Below, piece by piece: positions 15,223 to 25,456 of a stretch of 37,928 nucleotides of DNA. How positions within the stretch are numbered: position 1 is the first letter of the stretch; each line of letters opens with the position of its first letter. This stretch comes from Planctomycetaceae bacterium (GTDB lineage Bacteria; Planctomycetota; Planctomycetia; Planctomycetales; Planctomycetaceae), in contig WFTL01000006.1 of assembly GCA_015485495.1 (NCBI GenBank), forward strand, positions 1 to 37,928, given 5' to 3'. The notes below the pieces were generated by a model that ran no database searches, was not told where the DNA came from, and saw only the letters and a list, made by a program, of their open reading frames with translations. The translations under genes were made by a program, and so were the position numbers.

Positions 15223-16152
15223 TCAGCTTCCCAGCACTTTGTCGATCGTCTGACGCAGCACACTGCCGCTCCGCACCAGGGCGGCCTGTTCTTTCGCCCA
15301 CAGTTCCACTTCGATGTGTGTTCTCACCCCCCGCCGACCGACCACCGTGGGAACCGACAGACACACATCGCGCAGACCCCAAGCACCGTTCTGCAGACTG
15401 CTGACCGGCAGAATGCGGCCGGCGTCCAGGGCGATGCAGTGAATCACATCGGCGATGGCGACTCCCACGGCGAACCCGGCGCCTCCTTTGAGCCGAATCA
15501 CTTCCGCGCCGCTGCCGCGCGTCTGTTTTTCGATGTCTGCGATCAGGGCCGGAGTGACGCCGGGATACCGATCCAGCGGCAGTCCGGCGATCTGGGCCTG
15601 AGACCACACCGGGACCATGCTGTCGCCGTGTTCGCCCAGAATGGTCACGCTGACCTGAGTGGCGGGCACATCCAGCCGCATCGCCAGCAGACTGCGCAGC
15701 CGCGTCGTGTCCAGCGCCGTGCCCAGTCCGATGACCTGAGATGCCGGCAGCGGCAGTTCCTGAACGGCCAGGTACGTCAGCACGTCCACCGGATTCGACA
15801 CGACGAATACGATCGCATCCTGCCGCAGACCATGCTGCCGGATGTCTTCCAGAATGCTGCGGAACAGGGCGACGTTTCGGCTGATCAGATCCAGACGGCT
15901 TTCATCCGGTTTGCGCCGCAGGCCGGCGGTGATCACCACAACATCACTGTCCGCAACGTGCTCGGTGCTTCCCGACGAAATTCTCTGGTCGGCCGTCAGA
16001 GCCGCTCCGTGCAGCAGGTCCAGAGCCTGGCCTGCACAGAGATCCTGGTTGACATCGATGAGTGTGATATCGCGGACGATCCCGCCGGCCTGCAGGGCAA
16101 ACCCGGCACACGATCCGACCAGTCCGCCGCCGCCGATGATGCTGACTTTCAT
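15223..16152 (-). CDS. BMC-associated LDH/MDH-family dehydrogenase, LDH scaffold with Arg102
   Basis: 309 aa from the ATG at 16152 (AGAGG five bases upstream); a longer frame adds 30 residues with no family match. NAD-binding fold begins IIGGGGLVGS, and Asp33 after strand two points to NAD rather than NADP. Catalytic set: Asp148, Arg151 and His175 (Asp168, Arg171, His195 in LDH numbering), in GTALDTTRLR and ILGEHGDSMVPVWSQ, which are LDH-like. At the specificity position the loop reads AGLRRKPDESR: Arg80 stands where lactate dehydrogenases have Gln102 and malate dehydrogenases Arg102. By that rule oxaloacetate/malate is the better substrate guess. In PVM compartments a gene of this kind is thought to recycle NAD for the aldehyde dehydrogenase. 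No targeting peptide is visible. Last gene of the BMC locus, 104 bp after the aldolase. Confidence 0.93.
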   Translation of the reverse strand: MKVSIIGGGGLVGSCAGFALQAGGIVRDITLIDVNQDLCAGQALDLLHGAALTADQRISSGSTEHVADSDVVVITAGLRRKPDESRLDLISRNVALFRSILEDIRQHGLRQDAIVFVVSNPVDVLTYLAVQELPLPASQVIGLGTALDTTRLRSLLAMRLDVPATQVSVTILGEHGDSMVPVWSQAQIAGLPLDRYPGVTPALIADIEKQTRGSGAEVIRLKGGAGFAVGVAIADVIHCIALDAGRILPVSSLQNGAWGLRDVCLSVPTVVGRRGVRTHIEVELWAKEQAALVRSGSVLRQTIDKVLGS

Positions 16153-16256
16153 GGAATCCTCTGTCGCTGTTCCGGCTGCCGGGCAGCCGCTGCTGTCGAA
16201 TGGGAAATCGGCCGGCCGATCGGCCGGTGGAATCGGATGCACTCAGAAATCGGCCG

Positions 16257-17147
16257 TCAGGAAGCCTTTTGCAGAGCGGCCAGGACCTGATCGGTCACAA
16301 GCTGCACAAGGCGTTCATCGACATCCGCCGCCGACGGTTCGCATGCGGCCCCGCACGGTTCCTGCAGATAGCCGGGAAATTCGGGAGCTTTCGGGAATGC
16401 CCGCTGAACAGGAATCTGTTCGCGGTATCCCTCACGAAACGCACTGTTGCCGCACAGATCGCAGTTTTCGTTGTGAAACCGCGGATCGTCGAAACCCAGT
16501 CGCTTTTTCAGGTCCAGCAGTTCACGGTTCTTCTGTTCCGACAGATAATCGACATCGCCCATCTGGCGGGCCAGCAGCAGAATGCGGCAGTAGGCATCCA
16601 GAATTTCCGTTTTCCAGTACGCTTCGGTCAGATCTTTGCCGAAGCTCACGGTGCCGTGATTTTTCAGAATGATGGTGTTGGTCGACTGCAGAAACGGCGT
16701 GACGGTTTCAGCGAACTGCTGGTTTCCCGGAGTTTCATAGGGGGCAATGGGAACTTCTCCCATGAACACTTCCACTTCCGGAAGAATGCACTGCGGAATG
16801 GGTTCTCCCACGACGGCGAATGCCGTGGCGTGCGGCGGGTGACAGTGAACCACCGCTTTCACATCCGGACGATGCCGCATGATTTCCAGATGCAGGAGCA
16901 CTTCGCTGGTGCGTTTGCGCTTCCCGGCAATCTGGTTGCCTTCCATATCGACCGCACAGATGTCTTCGGGTTTCATGAACCCTTTGCAGATCATCGTCGG
17001 CGTGCACAGAACTTCGTTGTCGCCTGTGCGGATGCTGATGTTGCCGTCATTGGCGGCGGCAAAGCCCTTGTTGTAGATGCGTCGGCCGATTTCACAGATT
17101 TCTTCTTTCAGAGACCGACTGTGAATTCCGCTGTTCCAGCTTACCAT
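16257..17147 (-). CDS. Class II (FucA-like) sugar-phosphate aldolase with C-terminal BMC targeting peptide
   Basis: 296 aa from the ATG at 17147, which has AGGA upstream; an 18-codon extension in frame looks non-coding. The zinc site is clear: Glu82 (TSEVLLH), His101 and His103 (HCHPPHA), His164 (KNHGT). The spacings 19, 2 and 61 equal those of Glu73, His92, His94 and His155 of E. coli fuculose-1-phosphate aldolase, so this should be an active Zn aldolase splitting a ketose-1-phosphate (fuculose- or rhamnulose-1-P) into DHAP and lactaldehyde. After about residue 220 it has an extension absent from FucA: Cys229-x2-Cys232, a Pro-rich linker, Cys265-x3-Cys269, then a terminal amphipathic helix (DVDERLVQLVTDQVLAALQK) typical of encapsulation peptides. 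It would therefore act inside the compartment. Confidence 0.95.
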   Translation of the reverse strand: MVSWNSGIHSRSLKEEICEIGRRIYNKGFAAANDGNISIRTGDNEVLCTPTMICKGFMKPEDICAVDMEGNQIAGKRKRTSEVLLHLEIMRHRPDVKAVVHCHPPHATAFAVVGEPIPQCILPEVEVFMGEVPIAPYETPGNQQFAETVTPFLQSTNTIILKNHGTVSFGKDLTEAYWKTEILDAYCRILLLARQMGDVDYLSEQKNRELLDLKKRLGFDDPRFHNENCDLCGNSAFREGYREQIPVQRAFPKAPEFPGYLQEPCGAACEPSAADVDERLVQLVTDQVLAALQKAS

Positions 17148-17200
17148 GGGACAAATCCTGTTGTCTGAAGACGCACCGGCACGACACGCGCCGATGCACA

Positions 17201-17479
17201 CTAAAGGTTGATCTGATCGAGAATGGCGGCGTTGTAGCCGTCGACGGGTTTTGTCTGCGGATGGAACGGGGCGGCCGCTTCCGCGCTTTCACTGACAGCC
17301 ACGCGACTGCCGATCCCGGCCCCCAGTTCATCGCAGATGACGACCGGTTCCTCCCGCCCGGATGCCTGGCCGGCCAGACCGTCGCGGGTCAGCGGTACAG
17401 CCACTTTCCACACGAGCGAGTCCAGAGACGGATGGCATCGCGACAGCGTGACCGTGCCGATGATGTCCATGATTCTCAT
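17201..17479 (-). CDS. BMC-P shell vertex protein (EutN/CcmL family), copy 1
   Basis: 92 aa from the ATG at 17479, with AAGGAG five bases upstream; the nine-residue longer form is unlikely. The start MRIMDIIGTVTLSRCHPSL and the core VVICDELGAGIGSRVAVSES match the pentameric BMC-P fold, which caps the twelve vertices of the shell. The usual DxxGAGxGxxV core is present as DELGAGIGSRV. The ATG overlaps the stop of the upstream 219-aa gene by four bases (ATGA), so the two are probably translationally coupled. This copy differs from the other two in the locus by Cys17 and by an unusual C-terminal tail (PVDGYNAAILDQINL) in place of the GIVD ending. Confidence 0.93.
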   Translation of the reverse strand: MRIMDIIGTVTLSRCHPSLDSLVWKVAVPLTRDGLAGQASGREEPVVICDELGAGIGSRVAVSESAEAAAPFHPQTKPVDGYNAAILDQINL

Positions 17480-18135
17480 GACAGCTCCTTCCAGTGCGCC
17501 GGACACTCAGCATCGCGGCCGCCGAACTGCCGCACCAGATGCAGAAGCGACACGAATGTCCAGTTCTGCGGATTCAGGCAGAGAATGTCAGGGGCCATCT
17601 CCGAACACAGTTCCGAAAGGCAGGTGGTGCGGCTGACAACCGCGGCGCGGCGATCGGAACAGCGGTTCAGAAGACAGGCGGTGACAGACGGCTGCCGGCA
17701 GCAGCAGATGGTTCGACACGTCCCGTCCGCGGCTGCCAGCCGGGCCGCGGCGAATGCGTCCTCGGCGGCCACCACCTTCCAGCCGGCCGTGCGTGCCGCT
17801 TCGGCTGCCGTCCCCGCCGTGTCCGTCACAATCATCCGGCCGGAGGCGGGCGGCGCGCCCTGAGAATCGGGAGAATCTGTGCTGCGGATCAGCCGGATGC
17901 CGTGCCGATGGATGTAGTCGCGGCCGGACGGAGTCACCACCGCCGCGGGAAGGATCCGGACGATCCGGCCGGCTGCTTCCCGGCGCTGAAGCAGTTCTTC
18001 GGTAATCACCTGGTCGGAAAGGGACAGAGCATCTGCCGCGGCCGGCGCAGACGAACCGGCCGATGATGCGGGACGATTCAGTTCCCGCATCACGTTCTGC
18101 ACCACAGTGTCGATGAATTCCGGAGTAAACATCAT
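17476..18135 (-). CDS. Unknown BMC-locus protein with N-terminal targeting peptide and Cys-rich C-terminal half
   Basis: 219 aa (218 if the second ATG is used). I do not know its function. Residues 1-20 (MMFTPEFIDTVVQNVMREL) form an amphipathic helix like those that direct cargo into compartments, followed by an Ala/Ser-rich linker. Residues about 40-85 contain ITEELLQRR and VVTPSGRDYIHRHGI, a motif resembling the ITPxARDYxxxxGI segment seen near the N-terminus of several BMC cargo proteins. The last 90 residues hold ten cysteines, including a CCC run near residue 148. The segment from about 110 to 205 vaguely resembles an RpiB-like alpha/beta domain (ILCLNPQNW near the end), a weak reading. 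It shares four-base ATGA overlaps with the BMC-P genes on both sides, so it is made together with vertex proteins. Confidence 0.85.
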   Translation of the reverse strand: MMFTPEFIDTVVQNVMRELNRPASSAGSSAPAAADALSLSDQVITEELLQRREAAGRIVRILPAAVVTPSGRDYIHRHGIRLIRSTDSPDSQGAPPASGRMIVTDTAGTAAEAARTAGWKVVAAEDAFAAARLAAADGTCRTICCCRQPSVTACLLNRCSDRRAAVVSRTTCLSELCSEMAPDILCLNPQNWTFVSLLHLVRQFGGRDAECPAHWKELS

Positions 18136-18395
18136 GATGACCGGTCGAGAATTCCCTGAACGGCGTATCGAACGGGACTGTCCGGTCGTCCCATCTGTTC
18201 TCTCACGGCGCTGCCGTCGCTGGTGAAGAACACGGTGTCTCCCCGTCCGGCGCCGAGATCATCGATCGCCAGAATCGGGCAGCCGTCAGCCGCCCCGTGA
18301 ATGTCCAGCGGCTGCAGACACAATAGACGCCATCCTTCCAGTGCCGGATGGCGGACGGTGGCGTGAGCGTTTCCCAGAACAACAGCAGACTGCAT
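18132..18395 (-). CDS. BMC-P shell vertex protein (EutN/CcmL family), copy 2
   Basis: 87 aa from the ATG at 18395. Classic BMC-P sequence: VVLGNAHATVRHPALEGWRL, then AIDDLGAGRGDTVFFTSDGS, and the ending PVRYAVQGILD. This is the copy closest to the family norm. Its stop overlaps the start of the 219-aa gene by four bases (ATGA), and it follows the aldehyde dehydrogenase gene by 68 bp. It would form pentamers that close the shell vertices. A longer open frame runs upstream through the dehydrogenase gene, but only this last part is coding. Confidence 0.94.
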   Translation of the reverse strand: MQSAVVLGNAHATVRHPALEGWRLLCLQPLDIHGAADGCPILAIDDLGAGRGDTVFFTSDGSAVREQMGRPDSPVRYAVQGILDRSS

Positions 18396-18463
18396 GTGAA
18401 ACCTGTGTGGAATTCGAAAAAGGACCGCCGCAGCGACCGGTTGTCTGTTCGGCCGGCCGGAAT

Positions 18464-19897
18464 TCAGATGATCCGCAGGCCGTCCGCCATGGCACAGCGC
18501 CGCTGGCGGGTGAATGTGAGCGGACTGGTGACGCCTTCTCCGGTCGGAGTCGCGATACTGAAGGACGGATAGCCTTCTCCGCCGATTCCCAGTCCCGCCG
18601 TGCAGGGACCGTTTTTCACATAAAGTGTGGTGTTCATGATGCGGCCCATGCGGGTGATGTTCCGGACGCTGTTGGAATGGATGATGGCCGTGTGACCGAA
18701 TCCGTGTTCGTACTTCTGTGCCATGGCGATGGCGGCGTCCACATCCGGCACACGGACGAACGGGACGAACGGCATCATCTGTTCTTCCGACACGAACGGG
18801 CTGTGTTCGTCGGTTTCTCCGAACAGAATCTGAACGTTCTGCGGAATCGACAGGCCGATGCGATCCGCCAGCCACGCCGCGTCCTGACCGATGAAATCGC
18901 GGTTCAGGACCGGATGCCCGTTCGGTTTCTGCGGCGGCGAAAAGGCCTGCGATGTCAGTTGAGCGATCTGGCCGGCGTTCAGCCGGTATCCGCCGTGCCG
19001 TGAAACGGATGTCATCAGCGAATCGAAGATCGAGGACACCGCGAACACTTCCTTTTCCGCGATGCACAGCAGGTTGTTGTCGAACGCAGCACCGGTCACG
19101 ATGGAACGGGCCGCGTTGTCGATGTCGGCCGTTTCATCGACGACGACGGGCGGATTGCCGGGGCCGGCCACGATGGCCCGTTTGGGGCTTTTCAGAGCCG
19201 CACGGGCCACAGCCGGTCCGCCGGTGACCACTGCCACCCGCACTCCGCGGTGATCGAAAATCGCCTGAGCCGATTCGATGGTCGGGGTGCCGATGATCGT
19301 CACGAGATTCTTCAGTCCGGTGGCCTCGAAAATCGCTTTGTTGAATCGGCGGACTCCTTCGGCTGCGATACCGGCTCCCGACGGATGAGGATTGACGACG
19401 ATCGTGTTGCCGGCCGCCACCATGTTGACGAAATTGCCCGCCAGCGTCGGCAGAGAATGCGTCACCGGGGTGATGGCACCGATCACTCCGAACGGAGCGT
19501 ATTCCGTGACCGTCAGCCCGTGGTCTCCACTGACCGCGTCGGACCGCAGGAATTCCGTGCCCGGAATGCTGCGCACCAGACGCAGTTTGGCGATCTTGTG
19601 GTCCAGACGGCCAATGCCCGTTTCTTCCAGTTCCAGCCGTCCGAGTTCTTCCGCCTGTTCGTCACAGATCCGCTTCACGATGTCCACGGCCGTTGCCCGC
19701 AGGGAGACGGGAGATTCGCTGAGCTGCTCGAAGGCGGTCTGAGCAGCATCCACGGCCGCGTCGACGTCATCGAACACGCCCCAGTCGCCACGATCGGCAG
19801 CAGTCGGAACAGTCGGTATCACCGGGGAGCGGCGCTGTCCGAGCTGACTGAGGACCTCTTCGACAACCTGTCGGATTTCCTGTTCTGTGGCCTGCAT
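18464..19897 (-). CDS. CoA-acylating aldehyde dehydrogenase (PduP/EutE-like)
   Basis: 477 aa, ATG with AAGGGA upstream. It oxidises an aldehyde (by context lactaldehyde) to the acyl-CoA with NAD. Residues 1-20 ([20 protein letters not shown]) are an amphipathic targeting helix, followed by a Pro-rich linker. The ALDH fold covers about 40-477, with nucleophile Cys278 in [13 protein letters not shown]; PduP and EutE usually have Pro where Leu277 stands. [23 protein letters not shown] and [11 protein letters not shown] match the cofactor-binding region of CoA-acylating members. The catalytic Glu of hydrolytic ALDHs is not seen in this context, fitting CoA rather than water as acceptor. It is core cargo and the source of NADH that must be recycled within the compartment. 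Confidence 0.96.
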
Positions 19898-19967
19898 GAT
19901 GAATCCCTTTTCGGTGTGAAGTGCGGTTTCCGGGTGAAGACGGAAGGCTGCGGAAACGGGCGGCCCG

Positions 19968-20513
19968 CTACCGGAATTTCATTTCGAGCTGTTCTCGGGT
20001 CTGACGCATCCAGTCGCTGATTCGGCCTGTTGTGGGGAATTTCAGCAGCAGCAGCCCCGCCAGAACGACGCCCGCTGCCAGATTCGTTTTCGCGGGGGCC
20101 ACGAAACACAGGACCAGATTCAGCATGGCACCGCCTTCCAGCAGCGCACACCCGGTGAGATGACCGGCCTGATAGACGGGAAAAAGCTGCGTGAACCAGC
20201 CCGATTCCGGAATGTCCTGGAAGTCTTCGGCACGCAGCTGTTCGAGCTGATATCGGCGAATCAGTCCGGGAACAAACAGGTGCGAAAACCAGACGAACAC
20301 GACGACCGCCATTCCGATGCCGGACAGCAGTCCGGCATCGCCCGGGATGTCTCCTTCCTGCAGAAACAGTACGGCGGCATACATGACCAGAACCCCCACG
20401 GCCATGCCGACGGTCAGCATCTGAAGCCGCAGCACATCCGCCCGCTGCTCCGGCGGCAGGCGGATTGCTTCACTGTCGGAAAAGCGGCTGTCGAATGACG
20501 GTTCCGATGTCAT
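19968..20513 (-). CDS. Four-helix membrane protein embedded in the BMC locus
   Basis: 181 aa from an ATG with GGAGG nine bases upstream. Family not recognised. Hydrophobic segments at about residues 30-51, 60-85, 114-138 and 143-160 predict four transmembrane helices; both ends are hydrophilic and probably cytosolic. A loop between helices two and three ([20 protein letters not shown]) is charged and well suited to a protein contact. Its ATG overlaps the stop of the upstream BMC-P gene by four bases (ATGA), so it is coupled to a shell gene rather than a stray insertion. No transporter signature is visible. It could hold the compartment at the membrane, help sugar or product transport, or be unrelated to the shell; sequence alone does not decide. 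Confidence 0.85.
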
Positions 20514-20827
20514 GCCACCTGGCCTCCGGAAAAGATGGTTCGGTCATGCACGGTGACCGTGTCGATGATGCCCACAATGGCCGCATCCACCGGAAGTGTT
20601 TTCGTGTCGGCTGTGAAGCGGGCGCTGCTTCCCTGCACGCACAGGACGACTTCCCCTTCGCCCGCTCCCACCGTGTCCACAACCACGAAGGAACGGCCCG
20701 TGGGCTGCAGATCGCTCTGGTCTTCTTCGTTCACGCGCAGCGGTTCCACAATGAGCAGTTTTCGGCCCGTCAGTTCGCGGACTTTCTGAGTGGAAACCAC
20801 ACTGCCGGTAATTCGTCCCAGAAACAT
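20510..20827 (-). CDS. BMC-P shell vertex protein (EutN/CcmL family), copy 3
   Basis: 105 aa. MFLGRITGSVVSTQKVRELTG, KLLIVEPL and FVVVDTVGAGEGEVVLCVQGSSAR are close to the canonical CcmL/EutN sequence, and the ending IVGIIDTVTV matches the usual last strand. It has a longer C-terminal tail ([11 protein letters not shown]) than copy 2. AGGCAGG lies just upstream of the ATG. The stop overlaps the start of the membrane-protein gene, and the acetate-kinase gene ends 46 bp upstream. Three different BMC-P genes with two BMC-H genes and no BMC-T gene is the shell set described for PVM compartments. Confidence 0.95.
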   Translation of the reverse strand: MFLGRITGSVVSTQKVRELTGRKLLIVEPLRVNEEDQSDLQPTGRSFVVVDTVGAGEGEVVLCVQGSSARFTADTKTLPVDAAIVGIIDTVTVHDRTIFSGGQVA

Positions 20828-20873
20828 GTTGCCTGCCTGTCACTGTCGGTCTGGCGATGCGGGCGGCGGCCCG

Positions 20874-22073
20874 TCATCCTCCCTGTGATGTCAGAAGGTC
20901 GGCCGTCTGACGGGCCACCACGAGTTCTTCGTTCGCAGGAATCACCCACACTTCCGTCTGGCTGGTGTCCGTGCTGATCCGCTGTTCCTGTCCGGGCCGC
21001 ACGGCCGCGTTCCTCTGCGGGCACAGATCCGGTCCCAGCCACTGCAGGTCACGGCACACCTGACTGCGGACCCGCACGCTGTGTTCCCCGATTCCTCCCG
21101 TGAACACGAGCACATCCAGGCCGCCCAGCAGGACCAGATAGGAGCCGATGAAGGAACGTACAGACGCCTCGAACAGTCTCAGCGCCAGTTCCGCTCGTTC
21201 GTGACCTTCGGCGGCCGCCTGTTCCAGATCGCGGCAGTCGCCGCTCAGTCCGCTGATTCCCAGCAGGCCGCCGCGGACCGACATCTCCTGCAGGACCTCT
21301 TCGAACGACAGGCCGGTGGACTGCATGACCAGAGGAATGGCATAGGCATCGAAATCGCCGACGCGGTTTGCATTGGGCAGCCCTCCCTGGGGACTCATGC
21401 CCATCGATGTGGCCACGCTTTTCCCGTCCCGAATCGCACACACCGATGCACTGCCGCCCAGGTGACAACTGATCACCCGCAGGTCATCCCGGCCGCACAG
21501 GTCGGCCGTGCGGCCGGCCACCCAGCGATGACTGGCTCCGTGATAACCCCAGCGCCGAATTTCCCCGTCCGTGTACCATTCCCAGGGAACCGCGTAGGCC
21601 CGGTGTTCGAAAGGAATCGTTTCGTGAAATGCGGTTTCCAGGGCCGCCACCAGAGGAACTTCGGGGAACGCTTCCTGAAGCTGACGCATGGCGCGGACAT
21701 ACGGAGGATTGTGAGCCGGAGCGATCACGGACAGCCGCTCCATGGCATCCAGAAGTTCTTCATCCACCAGACGGACACCGCTGAGCCGGCCGGCGAACAC
21801 GGCTTTGAAACCGATTCCGCCGACGTCCGCCGCCGAATCCAGACACCCGCGGTCCGGACAGGTCAGCCGGTCCAGACAGATCTGCACGGCCGCCGCATGA
21901 TCCGCAACGTGCCGACGGCATTCCTCCGAGTGGGAGCCGATGACCGTCCGACAGAGGCTTTCCGCGCCCCCGATCCGGTCGATGGCTCCGCGCGCCAGTT
22001 CCGTTTCGTCCGACACATCGAACAGCCGGTACTTGAAACTCGTGGAACCCAGGTTGGCAACCAGAATCTTCAT
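20874..22073 (-). CDS. ackA: Divergent acetate-kinase homologue of the BMC
   Basis: 399 aa, full family length, ASKHA fold. Expected role: acyl-phosphate (by context lactyl-phosphate) plus ADP to acid plus ATP. Recognisable landmarks: [29 protein letters not shown] with His178, Arg237 in [15 protein letters not shown] and PANEELVVA. Several signature positions are changed compared with the well-studied Methanosarcina enzyme: RVVHGG reads KAVFAG (Arg91 to Lys90), FDTAFH reads LETAFH (Asp148 to Glu146), HLGNGAS reads HLGGSAS, GTRxGD reads ANRVGD, and GIGEN reads GIGEH. Several of these positions line the phosphate and substrate site, so altered substrate or rate is likely. The start has AGGAG about a turn upstream. 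No targeting helix was seen, so it may act outside the shell. Confidence 0.93.
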
Positions 22074-22148
22074 TCCGTCAGGCGTCTCCTGTCCGCTGCC
22101 GGTCCGCTCCGCCGTCTGAACCGGCGGTGGAGCGAACGGAATCGTCCG

Positions 22149-22415
22149 TCACACGAACTGGTCGAGCACGGTGGCTTCCGGGCGGGGGATCAGATGAGCG
22201 CTGATCAGTTCGCCGGAACGGGATGCGGCCGCAGCGCCCGCATCGACGGCCGCACGGACCGACCCCACGTCGCCGCGGATGATCGTGGTGACGAATCCTC
22301 CGCCGATCTGGACCTGCCGCACCAGGCTCACATTGGCGGCCTTGAGCATGGCGTCGGATGCTTCGATCTGGCACACCAGACCGCGCGTTTCAATCATTCC
22401 GATGGCTTCTGACAT
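22149..22415 (-). CDS. BMC-H shell protein, copy 1
   Basis: 88 aa, single BMC domain that forms hexameric shell tiles. [26 protein letters not shown] is the standard first half; [19 protein letters not shown] the standard second half; [10 protein letters not shown] the closing strand. The pore loop reads GGGF (about residues 38-41) where many BMC-H proteins have GSG, so the central pore should be wide and uncharged apart from backbone. There is a weak ribosome binding site. It lies 99 bp after the second BMC-H gene and 75 bp before the kinase. Confidence 0.97.
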
Positions 22416-22514
22416 CTGTCTGCTTTCTGTTGTCTCGGTTCTGTCGGTCGGTCGTTTTCAGGAAAGGAGCCGGCAGGATCGTTTCGTCCCGCGGATCGGT
22501 ATGTTCCCGTCATG

Positions 22515-22814
22515 TCATTTGGAAGATCGTGTGGTGCGCTTCGGCAGGACTCCGCTGAGTTCTTCGTGGGGGCGGGGAATCACATCGACGCTGATGACTT
22601 CCCCCAGCCGGGATGCGGCCTGAGCGCCGGCGTCCACGGCCGCCTTGACGGCCGCCACATCCCCCACCACGAAGGCGGTCACCAGGCCGCTGCCGACCTT
22701 GTCCCATCCGATCATTTCCACGTTGGCTGCCTTGAGCATCGAGTCCACGGCTTCCACCAGACAGACGAAACCTTTGGTTTCGATCATTCCCAGTGCTTCC
22801 ATCGCTTTGGCCAT
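22515..22814 (-). CDS. BMC-H shell protein, copy 2
   Basis: 99 aa from the ATG at 22814, which has GGGAG nine bases upstream; six extra upstream codons are unlikely. Standard BMC-H sequence: [28 protein letters not shown], pore loop [34 protein letters not shown]. After the domain comes a short basic tail (PKRTTRSSK) that could reach the shell surface. It differs from copy 1 in the pore loop and the tail, so the two tiles probably pass different solutes or make different contacts. It is transcribed just before copy 1. Confidence 0.97.
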
Positions 22815-22926
22815 TTCTGTTGTCTCCCGCATCCGTCACCGGTGTCCTGCCGGTGCATCAGCGATTTCGTAAGGCGACGTTCCCTTGTCGCCGGAGCTGT
22901 TTCGTGTCAGGGATTCTGAAAAACGT

Positions 22927-23700
22927 TCATGAATGACAGGCACAGGGCACCGCTTTGAACAGTTCCACCTTCGTGGCCTGCTCGATGTTGATCGCATTGC
23001 CTTCGTCCGTATCCAGGTGCACCTCCAGACGAATGTTGTCTCCTGATCGGACCACCAGGTCTTCCAGAACCGTCGTGCAGCCGGGAGATTCCACACGCAG
23101 ATGCATCGTGTGGCCATCGGCCACGCCGTAGTGCGCCAGATCGTCCGGACCCATGTGGACGTGACGCATGGCACGAATCACGCCCTGCTGCAGTTCCACG
23201 ACGCCGTGCGGGCCGACCAGAACGCAGCCGGGCGTCCCCTGAATGTCGCCGCTGATGCGGACCGGCAGGTCGATCCCCAGAGAAATCCCGTCGGTAAAGG
23301 CCAGCTCGACCTGCGATTCCTTCCGGCAGGGGCCCAGGACCCGGACATTGGGAATCATCCGCCGCCGAGGACCGACCACGGCCACCGTTTCCCGGGCCGC
23401 GTAGTATCCGTCCTGGTAGAGATCCTTTTCCGGCGTCAGAGTGCGGCCGGGACCAAACAAAGTTTCCACGTCGTCGGCCGTCAGATGAACATGACGGGCC
23501 GAAATGTTGACGACGAGCGGATTGCGGGACGGCGCGGCGACAGCGGCCGCCGCAGGATCCGGAAACGAACCGACCTGCTCGTTTCGCAGCACCGGGATGT
23601 CGGCGGACGGACGGCCGCTCTGCACGGCAGACTGACGCCTCAGCACGTCCCGCACGACACGTTCAATGTCAGATCGACGAATTTCAGCAGTGGATACCAC
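22927..23700 (-). CDS. pduL: PduL-type phosphotransacylase
   Basis: 257 aa from a GTG with AGGGA six bases upstream. It converts acyl-CoA to acyl-phosphate, freeing CoA inside the compartment. Residues 1-23 ([17 protein letters not shown]) are an amphipathic targeting helix followed by a long Ala/Pro linker to about residue 58. Two beta-barrel PduL repeats follow. Metal-site histidines: His70 and His72 (SARHVHL), His180 and His182 ([10 protein letters not shown]), and His228 ([12 protein letters not shown]). The sequence is unrelated to Pta phosphotransacetylases, as expected. With the aldehyde dehydrogenase and kinase it gives the acyl-CoA to ATP step of the pathway. The gene lies directly after the regulator with an 83-bp gap. 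Confidence 0.96.
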
Positions 23701-23783: not shown

Positions 23784-24590
23784 TCAGCTCCGTGCGGAAC
23801 CGACTTCATCGACGTGACTGATACTGTTGTCGTCCTTTCCCCCCGCCCGTCGGACAACAATCCCGCGCCGGCTGAGCGCATCCTGCCATTCCTGACCAAG
23901 CCGGTCGTCCGATACCACCTGATCGACCTCTTCAAGCGGACACAGATGCGACAGGGCCCGCTGGCCGAACTTGGAATGGTCGGCAACCAGAGTCACACAC
24001 TCGGCCGAACGCATCATCTGACGTTCCGTATCGACCAGCAGAGCGTTGCTGTTGAACAGGCCTTCTTCCGTAATGCCGCCGGCACTCATCACCAGCCGCG
24101 AAACATAGATTTTCCGCAAAGCCTCTACAGCCTGATCCCCCAGCGCCACCCCGGTTTTCGGATACACATAGCCGCCGATGAAAATCAGTTCGATCAGAGA
24201 CTGATTCATCAGCAGACCGGCAATCGGCAGCGAATTCGTCACCACCTGCAGACGTCGGTGCGTCAGATGACGCGCCACCTCCAGCGTCGTCGTCCCGCCA
24301 TCCAGCAGAACCGTTTCCCCATCGGCAATCAGAGACGCCGTCAGCCGGGCGATTGCCTGCTTTTCCGCCGATGCCTGAGTGCGGCGAACGGACAGGTCCG
24401 TCAGCGACTCCCCGGCATAGGCCGCACCACCCCGCGTCCGCTGTATGTGCCCCTGGCCGTGCAGTTGCTCCAGATCCCGCCGGACCGTCGATTCGCTGGC
24501 GCCGACCGCCGCTGCAAGCTGCTGGAGTGGGGCGAACCCATTCCGCTCAACAATCTCCAGAATTTTTCTGCGTCGCTGTTCCGCAAGCAT
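23784..24590 (-). CDS. DeoR-family transcriptional regulator of the BMC locus
   Basis: 268 aa, ATG with GGAGAAGG upstream. N-terminal winged helix-turn-helix (about residues 1-57): [39 protein letters not shown] is the DeoR signature. The C-terminal effector domain has the phosphosugar-sensing marks [34 protein letters not shown] and VADHSKFG. Proteins of this class are usually repressors released by a sugar phosphate, here plausibly a fucose/rhamnose pathway intermediate. It is the first gene on the minus strand of the locus, and 130-160 bp upstream of its start there are three tandem 10-bp repeats that could be its operator. Confidence 0.95.
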
Positions 24591-24669: not shown

Positions 24670-24698
24670 CAATTACCACCATATTTGTTCTGTGTCAA
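24670..24698 (-). promoter_or_regulatory. Candidate promoter of the BMC locus
   Basis: On the minus strand TTGACA (24698-24693) is followed after 17 bp by TAATTG (24675-24670), about 80 bp before the DeoR start. The -35 is a perfect match to the general bacterial consensus, the -10 is poor. The region is far more AT-rich than its surroundings, which supports a promoter. Confidence 0.4.
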
Positions 24699-24719
24699 TC
24701 AATTTCATTCATAAGATAC

Positions 24720-24749
24720 TCATATTCTGTCATATTCTGTCATATTCAG
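24720..24749. repeat. Three tandem 10-bp repeats, candidate DeoR operator
   Basis: TCATATTCTG at 24720-24729 and again at 24730-24739, then TCATATTCAG at 24740-24749. One base differs in the third copy. The period equals one helical turn, so a protein binding the repeats would contact the same face each time. They lie just upstream of the TTGACA of the candidate promoter. DeoR-family regulators often bind tandem or inverted AT-rich repeats near their own gene. Confidence 0.6.
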
Positions 24750-24984
24750 GCAGGCTGCTGGTCGGGGTGCGGGGAGGAATCGGCAGGATCAGACGGCTCC
24801 TCAATCGTCGAAAATCGCCACACCGTCGGTGCGAAATGCGTCAGTCGGTCGACCGGAGACCGGGCAGCAGGCGGGAAAAACGGGGCGTCGGAAAAAAATG
24901 AACTCCGGCACGCGACGTGCTTTCACGGTCTGCACGGGTGTCGTGGGCAGCGAGCAATGGCCCGCCTTGCTGTTCCGACATTGC
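24750..24984 (+). other. Non-coding stretch ending in a plus-strand terminator; possible small RNA
   Basis: No plus-strand protein frame here looks real, yet the stretch runs into a perfect intrinsic terminator. A small RNA starting somewhere between the AT-rich repeat region and about 24900 would explain it. No known RNA family (SRP RNA, tmRNA, RNase P RNA, 6S) was matched by eye. Confidence 0.3.
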
Positions 24985-25020
24985 AGCGTCCCCGGGAAAC
25001 CGGGGACGCTATTTTTTTTT
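24985..25020 (+). terminator. Strong rho-independent terminator, plus strand
   Basis: An 11-bp perfect stem (AGCGTCCCCGG / CCGGGGACGCT) with a GAAA tetraloop is followed at once by A and nine T. The minus strand has no T-run after the hairpin, so it is directional. No plus-strand gene precedes it for more than 9 kb. Confidence 0.85.
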
Positions 25021-25338: not shown

Positions 25339-25378
25339 AAAACGTCTCGACGGCCTCCCGGGGGACCGCCGAGACGTT
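25339..25378 (-). terminator. Terminator of the amidotransferase-like gene
   Basis: The inverted repeat AACGTCTCG / CGAGACGTT (341-349 with 370-378) continues, after one mismatch, with CGG / CCG. On the minus strand the hairpin runs into TTTT. It lies 79 bp after the stop at 25457, and so fits the end of that transcript. Confidence 0.55.
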
Positions 25379-25456
25379 ATTGTACGTTCGTCGGATTCGA
25401 ACGCCCTTGTGGGTCGCACCGCTTCTCAGGCGAACCCGCACCGGGCCGGTCGAAGG

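Follow-up and report, generated by a model that had tools for sequence, protein, structure and literature searches.

How is a planctomycete microcompartment operon switched on, and does the short run of tandem repeats in front of its first gene take part in that control? In Planctopirus limnophila the first gene of the microcompartment cluster encodes a DeoR-type regulator, PvmA, and expression from the PvmA/promoter pair is induced by rhamnose (PMC11958385). Here we analyze a stretch of 37,928 bases from a Planctomycetaceae bacterium (hereafter the window), in which a preliminary description had placed three 10-bp repeats upstream of a DeoR-type regulator gene and proposed them as its operator.

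The regulator gene and its operon

The gene at 23784–24590 on the minus strand encodes a PvmA-like regulator of 268 aa with an HTH_DeoR domain and a DeoRC sensor domain. Profile matches to both (PF08220, 1.3e-14; PF00455, 3.8e-47) lie over their cut-offs and place the protein in the DeoR family, while 15 NCBIfam models matched it, none at its cut-off. The next gene, on the same strand, encodes a PduL-type phosphate propanoyltransferase (22927–23700), and the remaining operon (15223–22832, minus strand) was assigned from Pfam and NCBIfam matches. It comprises two BMC-domain shell proteins (22515–22832 and 22149–22415), an acetate-kinase family protein (20874–22073), EutN/CcmL proteins (20510–20827 and a frame ending at 18132), an aldehyde dehydrogenase (18464–19897), a class II aldolase (16257–17201) and a lactate/malate dehydrogenase (15223–16242); the minus-strand frames 19968–20513 and 17476–18135 had no Pfam or NCBIfam match. 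This set of DeoR regulator, PduL, shell, kinase, dehydrogenase and aldolase genes on one strand matches the gene content of PVM clusters in planctomycetes. The same pairing, with PduL behind the regulator and in the same orientation, recurs in 99 of the 100 orthologous loci described below; for the hundredth, L010, just 1,131 nt of downstream DNA are available.

A repeat array at the regulator promoter

Upstream of the regulator gene, TCATATTCTG occurs on the plus strand at 24720–24729 and again at 24730–24739, followed by TCATATTCAG at 24740–24749, so that three 10-bp units adjoin head to tail (24720–24749; CTGAATATGA CAGAATATGA CAGAATATGA on the regulator strand). Tandem Repeats Finder reports the same array at 24720–24747 (period 10, 2.8 copies, 100% matches), and its score of 56 is the highest among the 12 rows returned for the whole window. 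The preliminary description, which had one sequence present twice and another once, is thus confirmed on this point. A single further copy of the unit with at most one mismatch is present within the 37,928 bases, at 18824–18833. A count of four is unremarkable on its own (the shuffled mean is 1.52, and four is reached in 8 of 100 shuffles); the unusual feature is the uninterrupted head-to-tail order of the three exact copies.

The array extends further when viewed on the regulator strand. Units beginning with TGA start at 24742, 24732, 24722, 24711 and 24701, with steps of 10, 10, 11 and 10 bp; the sequences are TGACAGAATA at 24742 and 24732, TGAGTATCTT at 24722, TGAATGAAAT at 24711 and TGATTGACAC at 24701. 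With a degenerate TGC unit, TGCCTGAATA, at 24752, the whole array covers approximately 24692–24752. The units at 24711 and 24701 lie beyond the three originally described and are in phase with them after the single 11-bp step. We divide the array into a putative distal operator cluster (24713–24752, minus strand), composed of the units at 24742, 24732 and 24722 and the degenerate unit at 24752, and a putative proximal pair, TGAATGAAATTGATTGACAC (24692–24711, minus strand), composed of the units at 24711 and 24701. The top motif score of the window, 29.3 bits at 24721–24746, falls inside the distal cluster.

The proximal pair overlaps the −35 box of the regulator promoter, TTGACA (24693–24698, minus strand), which is contained in the last unit and starts 108 bp before the regulator ATG. 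The TTGACA box mentioned earlier as a neighbor of the repeats is therefore real and reads on the regulator strand (24698–24693). A putative −10 box, TAATTG (24670–24675, minus strand), follows at 17-nt spacing; it matches the consensus poorly, and two consensus promoter scans reported no promoter at the TTGACA/TAATTG site. The array has the arrangement that defines DeoR-type rhamnose-regulator operators, at least two direct repeats at a 10–11-bp period in the promoter of the regulated operon.

Conservation upstream of orthologous regulators

We collected orthologous upstream regions from 22 named loci and from 83 of the 85 regulator-matching genomes among 99 searched, own genome included, leaving out G010 (a 90-residue fragment) and G094. 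The resulting 108 rows gave 100 distinct upstream regions after removal of seven duplicates and of L110 (20 bp upstream), and 97 of these were scored, L019, L049 and L061 having been dropped with <250 bp upstream. Because some loci are closely related to one another (for example L004, L006 and L007), the locus counts that follow are not independent.

Across the 100 regions we counted 99 pairs of TGA triplets at a 10-bp distance on the same strand (13.9 in shuffles) and 67 such pairs of TCA (10.5 in shuffles), an excess of 6–7 times for either triplet. Spacings of 20 bp are also enriched, as are those of 4 and 14 bp, the latter two because of words such as TGATTGA. Expectation maximization (EM) returned a motif 26 bp long that approximates AATATGACAGATTTTGAYTGATTTTG; it carries 18.9 bits, compared with 8.2–8.7 for three shuffled sets. 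The seeds were picked after the repeats had been seen, and the control was limited to those three shuffles, with one seed and 25 iterations versus 40 for the real set. Site scores from the EM run are in natural-log units and all subsequent motif scores are in bits. The information in the motif resides mostly at the TGA and GA positions, the A/T positions being variable, and the unit can be written TGAnnGAnnn.

Leave-out scoring placed 81 of the 97 regions above the 99th percentile of shuffles and 93 above the 95th; against regulator coding 250-mers, a stricter control, 60 and 75 of the 97 exceeded these percentiles. In both comparisons the scored sequence and its look-alikes were removed from the model while the site positions from the full model were retained. 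The window scored 28.8 bits, exceeding all values of both controls. Each of the four regions below the shuffled 95th percentile belongs to a locus at 48–53% protein identity, and G094, which stood outside the model and the counts, scored 16.5 bits. Runs of at least three units are found in 49 of the 100 loci, compared with 1.4% of shuffles. By the 99th percentile of either control, a site of this type is conserved upstream of most orthologous regulators, and similar repeats at other PVM loci, proposed in the preliminary description as a check, are present at most of them as a 10-bp tandem motif. The best sites over the 100 loci are divided between the gene strand (63) and the opposite strand (37). 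Upstream of the regulator in L038 we also observed a five-unit 10-bp run by the script's rule, with the best site 13 bp from the start codon.

Register of the sites to the promoter

TGATTGA occurs on the gene strand in 33 of the 100 loci. When these loci are aligned on this word, their columns show a −35 element, TTGAWW, inside the repeat, then a 17-nt spacer and a −10 element, YANANT, so that the −35 box forms part of the repeat unit. The register of the TTGACA box in the window is the one common to TGATTGA-containing orthologues, and the proximal pair keeps it.

Promoters were called by a rule demanding a score of at least 9 (12 hexamer matches are possible, with a half-point added for 17-nt spacing). 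This rule recognized a promoter in 40 of the 100 regions and in 6.9% of shuffles, with 17-nt spacing in 33 of the 40. A motif site overlaps the −35 to −10 interval in 31 of these 40 loci, although part of that overlap is built in since the rule requires TTG, a triplet within the motif; the −10 element at 17 nt is not built in. Among the gene-strand best sites of these loci, 12 of 25 begin precisely 17 nt ahead of the −35 box.

Closer relatives differ in arrangement. In both same-genus relatives the top-scoring site lies on the opposite strand and covers the −10 side of the promoter; by eye, the units in L001 (same genus) and in L011 lie on the opposite strand over a −10 box, CATAAT. Conservation therefore extends to the type of site but not to its strand or precise location. 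This shifting of strand and position inside one genus is, in our view, the most interesting feature of the array.

Specificity and extent of the regulon

The two-unit pattern TGANWGAWWWTGANWGA, allowing at most one mismatch, has three sites in the 4.67-Mb genome (two exact, one with a single mismatch), all of them in the array promoter, and its reversed control at the same tolerance has zero over the whole genome. That the pattern is found nowhere else in the genome, together with the presence of the motif upstream in most of the 97 loci and of PduL behind the regulator in 99 of 100, strengthens the earlier proposal that the product of the first gene, the DeoR-type regulator, has its operator here. 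Among the 99 genomes, exact two-unit matches number 26 in 18 genomes, and those of the reversed control 2. Ten of the 26 (in 8 genomes) fall directly in front of the regulator gene, in regions that make up a tiny fraction of the DNA; an exact match at that position is absent from the other 77 of the 85 regulator-matching genomes, both same-genus genomes included. The other 16 lie away from the regulator, in G004, G022 and G047 for example, and may be further targets, paralogue operators or chance.

Other candidate targets were scored with the full model. Upstream regions of eight paralogous DeoR genes (a ninth place, G039:C1:302205, was left out) ranged from −5.1 to 13.8 bits, and as two of the eight exceed the 13.1-bit threshold, with two more at 12.6, the paralogues may be served by operators of a related type. 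Outside the window, an 18-mer search gave as near matches L025 (two mismatches, 15.8 bits), which we rejected as an operator as it falls inside a long open frame, and L026 and L027, with three mismatches each.

A rhamnulokinase-like gene is present in genome G000 (C170:13320-14804), and the 128-bp gap upstream of it holds motif matches of 12.3 and 9.8 bits. We rejected rhamnulokinase as a conserved second target: in the best 30 of 59 genomes, one of 30 upstream regions, that of G000 itself, exceeded the shuffled 95th percentile, and those of both congeners scored −6.1 and 0.5 bits. A rhamnulokinase site confined to G000 may exist. The isomerase models RhaA, Fucose_iso_C and L_rham_iso_rhiz (PF06134, PF02952 and TIGR02629) were unmatched in G000, which is 98% complete. 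The earlier suggestion that the same repeats might recur at fucose and rhamnose genes thus did not hold for rhamnulokinase, and sites at other rhamnose/fucose genes are not a required feature of this operator class. Given the uniqueness of TGANWGAWWWTGANWGA in the genome and the lack of conservation of the rhamnulokinase site, the regulon looks local, and the comparison suggests that it may consist of one promoter.

Within the window, a motif scan of the pvmA–pduL gap gave no notable match, and the best match anywhere outside the array has 9.6 bits. Control of the whole locus by the array is plausible, since every gene from the regulator through the lactate dehydrogenase has one orientation and the best outside match is this low.

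A candidate small RNA beyond the array

On the far side of the array from the regulator, the region 24907–25020 contains a candidate small RNA on the plus strand (~24932–25018, about 87 nt) that reads away from the regulator. Ahead of it stands a GG-N10-GC box (24907–24920) that resembles a sigma-54 promoter, and it ends in a strong intrinsic terminator (24985–25010). The candidate is conserved at 84–86% in both same-genus genomes searched, GG-N10-GC box included, and its predicted fold is much stronger than that of shuffles (z −5.8 here and −4.2 in G001), the terminator explaining part of this difference. Rfam at gathering thresholds gave no match in the whole window, the candidate included. 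A 24-base core, at up to three mismatches, was found in 7 of 99 genomes, exactly in the three of the genus and with three mismatches in four others; its reversed control had two matches at the same tolerance, and inspection by eye of L128, one of the four three-mismatch genomes, revealed no small RNA element. Our literature search on planctomycete sigma-54 small RNAs found nothing. Farther along, an inverted repeat, AACGTCTCGACGGCC...ACCGCCGAGACGTT (25343–25380), was seen by eye and is unlisted in the scan; it lies after the peptidase C26 gene (25457–26335, minus strand) and is perhaps its terminator.

A model for PvmA control and its alternatives

The array is most likely the operator of the PvmA encoded immediately downstream. 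We consider it highly probable that this operator has two clusters, and that PvmA represses its own operon through them until a sugar intermediate releases it. The operator would consist of two clusters of TGAnnGAnnn units, the distal one at 24713–24752 and the proximal pair at 24692–24711 over the −35 box, and this spacing of one unit per helical turn would allow the winged-helix domains of an oligomeric PvmA to line up along one face of the DNA. When no inducer is present, PvmA on the array would cover the −35 region and exclude RNA polymerase, keeping pvmA and the microcompartment genes that run in the same direction silent; an early intermediate of rhamnose or fucose breakdown would then release it. 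Binding by PvmA, repression as opposed to activation, read-through across the whole operon and the nature of the inducer are the parts of this model that we infer. Weighing against it are the smaller number of regions that pass the stricter coding control, the four regions below the shuffled 95th percentile, the scarcity of exact two-unit matches at other regulators (8 of 85 genomes), the incomplete separation from paralogues, the changed layout in same-genus relatives and the weak −10 box, and a site that ends at the −35 box would suit an activator too.

The turnover of strand, unit number and place, even within the genus, could be read further, as a freely rearranging ladder in which selection acts on the 10-bp step and the promoter register only, and PvmA would therefore be an oligomer of variable length that binds in either direction; we hold this reading tentatively and think it rather doubtful. 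Alternatively, PvmA could activate transcription, occupying the −35 box and the DNA directly ahead of it once inducer is present. Sites on the gene strand frequently terminate close to the −35 box at a fixed register, a geometry that activators also use; the −10 box is weak, and the NCBIfam model for a DeoR-family L-fucose operon activator matches the regulator at 98.5 bits, far under its cut-off of 259. Set against this, the repeats of L001 and L011 overlap the −10 box by eye, as fits repression, and the P. limnophila reporter is strongly active in E. coli even when rhamnose is absent, which in its authors' view might strengthen the case for a repressor (PMC11958385). Activation is in our judgment unlikely.

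That the repeats are bound not by PvmA but by a different regulator, such as a catabolite-control protein, seems very unlikely. Glucose is reported to lower expression of the pvm reporter (PMC11958385), and some second regulator may therefore be involved at some point; a global regulator, however, should have many sites, whereas the two-unit pattern at up to one mismatch has no second match elsewhere in the genome, and across genera the motif follows the PvmA-type regulator's own promoter. The preliminary description had further raised a divergent transcript under the same operator, and the conserved, terminator-ended element at ~24932–25018 would be the candidate for a plus-strand transcript that the array additionally drives or controls. 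We find no support for this: the element has its own sigma-54-like GG-N10-GC box, which lies ~155 bp beyond the array and has counterparts in both same-genus genomes, and the distance of the element to the regulator is 534–549 bp in same-genus relatives versus 346 bp here, making such control highly improbable. Least credible of all is an array with no bound protein, either a chance minisatellite, given that slippage can yield perfect 10-bp copies, or a phased bend, given that the island around the array looks AT-rich. Several results speak against both forms: most of the information resides in TGA and GA while the A/T positions vary, relatives keep the 10-bp step though the strand and positions of their units differ, and runs of at least three units far exceed shuffles (49 of 100 against 1.4%). 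Repression by PvmA through the two-cluster operator remains our preferred model.

Relation to known systems

The array provides a concrete operator sequence for the regulator family behind the native rhamnose-inducible system built in Planctopirus limnophila, as presented in the main text of that work (PMC11958385), and its motif could be used to predict and engineer the control of planctomycete microcompartments. It leaves knowledge of DeoR-family operators in general unchanged. Our searches, with most subscription journals outside their coverage, found no published operator of PvmA or of any planctomycete DeoR regulator, and a search for DeoR structures with operator DNA found nothing directly on PvmA-type regulators. 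The words "operator" and "repeat" are absent from the main text of the P. limnophila report (PMC11958385), as is the word "planctomyc-" from the main text of a study of rhamnose regulons (PMC3870299).

Within the DeoR family at large, the array belongs to a familiar kind. The operators of the DeoR-family regulators IolR and AgaR have repeated half-sites about one turn apart, with sequences and targets that differ from those of the array, and the regulator matches the AgaR protein model at 143.5 bits, far under its cut-off of 260. The array is very probably an operator of a known kind and, within the reach of our searches, apparently the first described for a PvmA-type regulator.

Two other systems are also close. 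The P. limnophila pvm cluster likewise has a DeoR-type gene as its first gene, and it differs in a second promoter predicted between pvmA and pvmB, a position where the window has no notable motif (PMC11958385). The rhamnose regulon study describes DeoR-family regulators of rhamnose catabolism (RhaR) with direct repeats of 10–11 bp, most of whose regulons are local, with one to several operons; for the repressor RhaR of Chloroflexus aurantiacus, an electrophoretic mobility shift assay on a 38-bp array of four sites demonstrated binding that L-rhamnulose abolished (PMC3870299). The array described here resembles those operators in regulator family, in an apparently local regulon and in tandem repeats of 10–11 bp within the regulator's own promoter, and it differs from them in its unit, which is TCGAAA there and TGAnnGAnnn here (PMC3870299).
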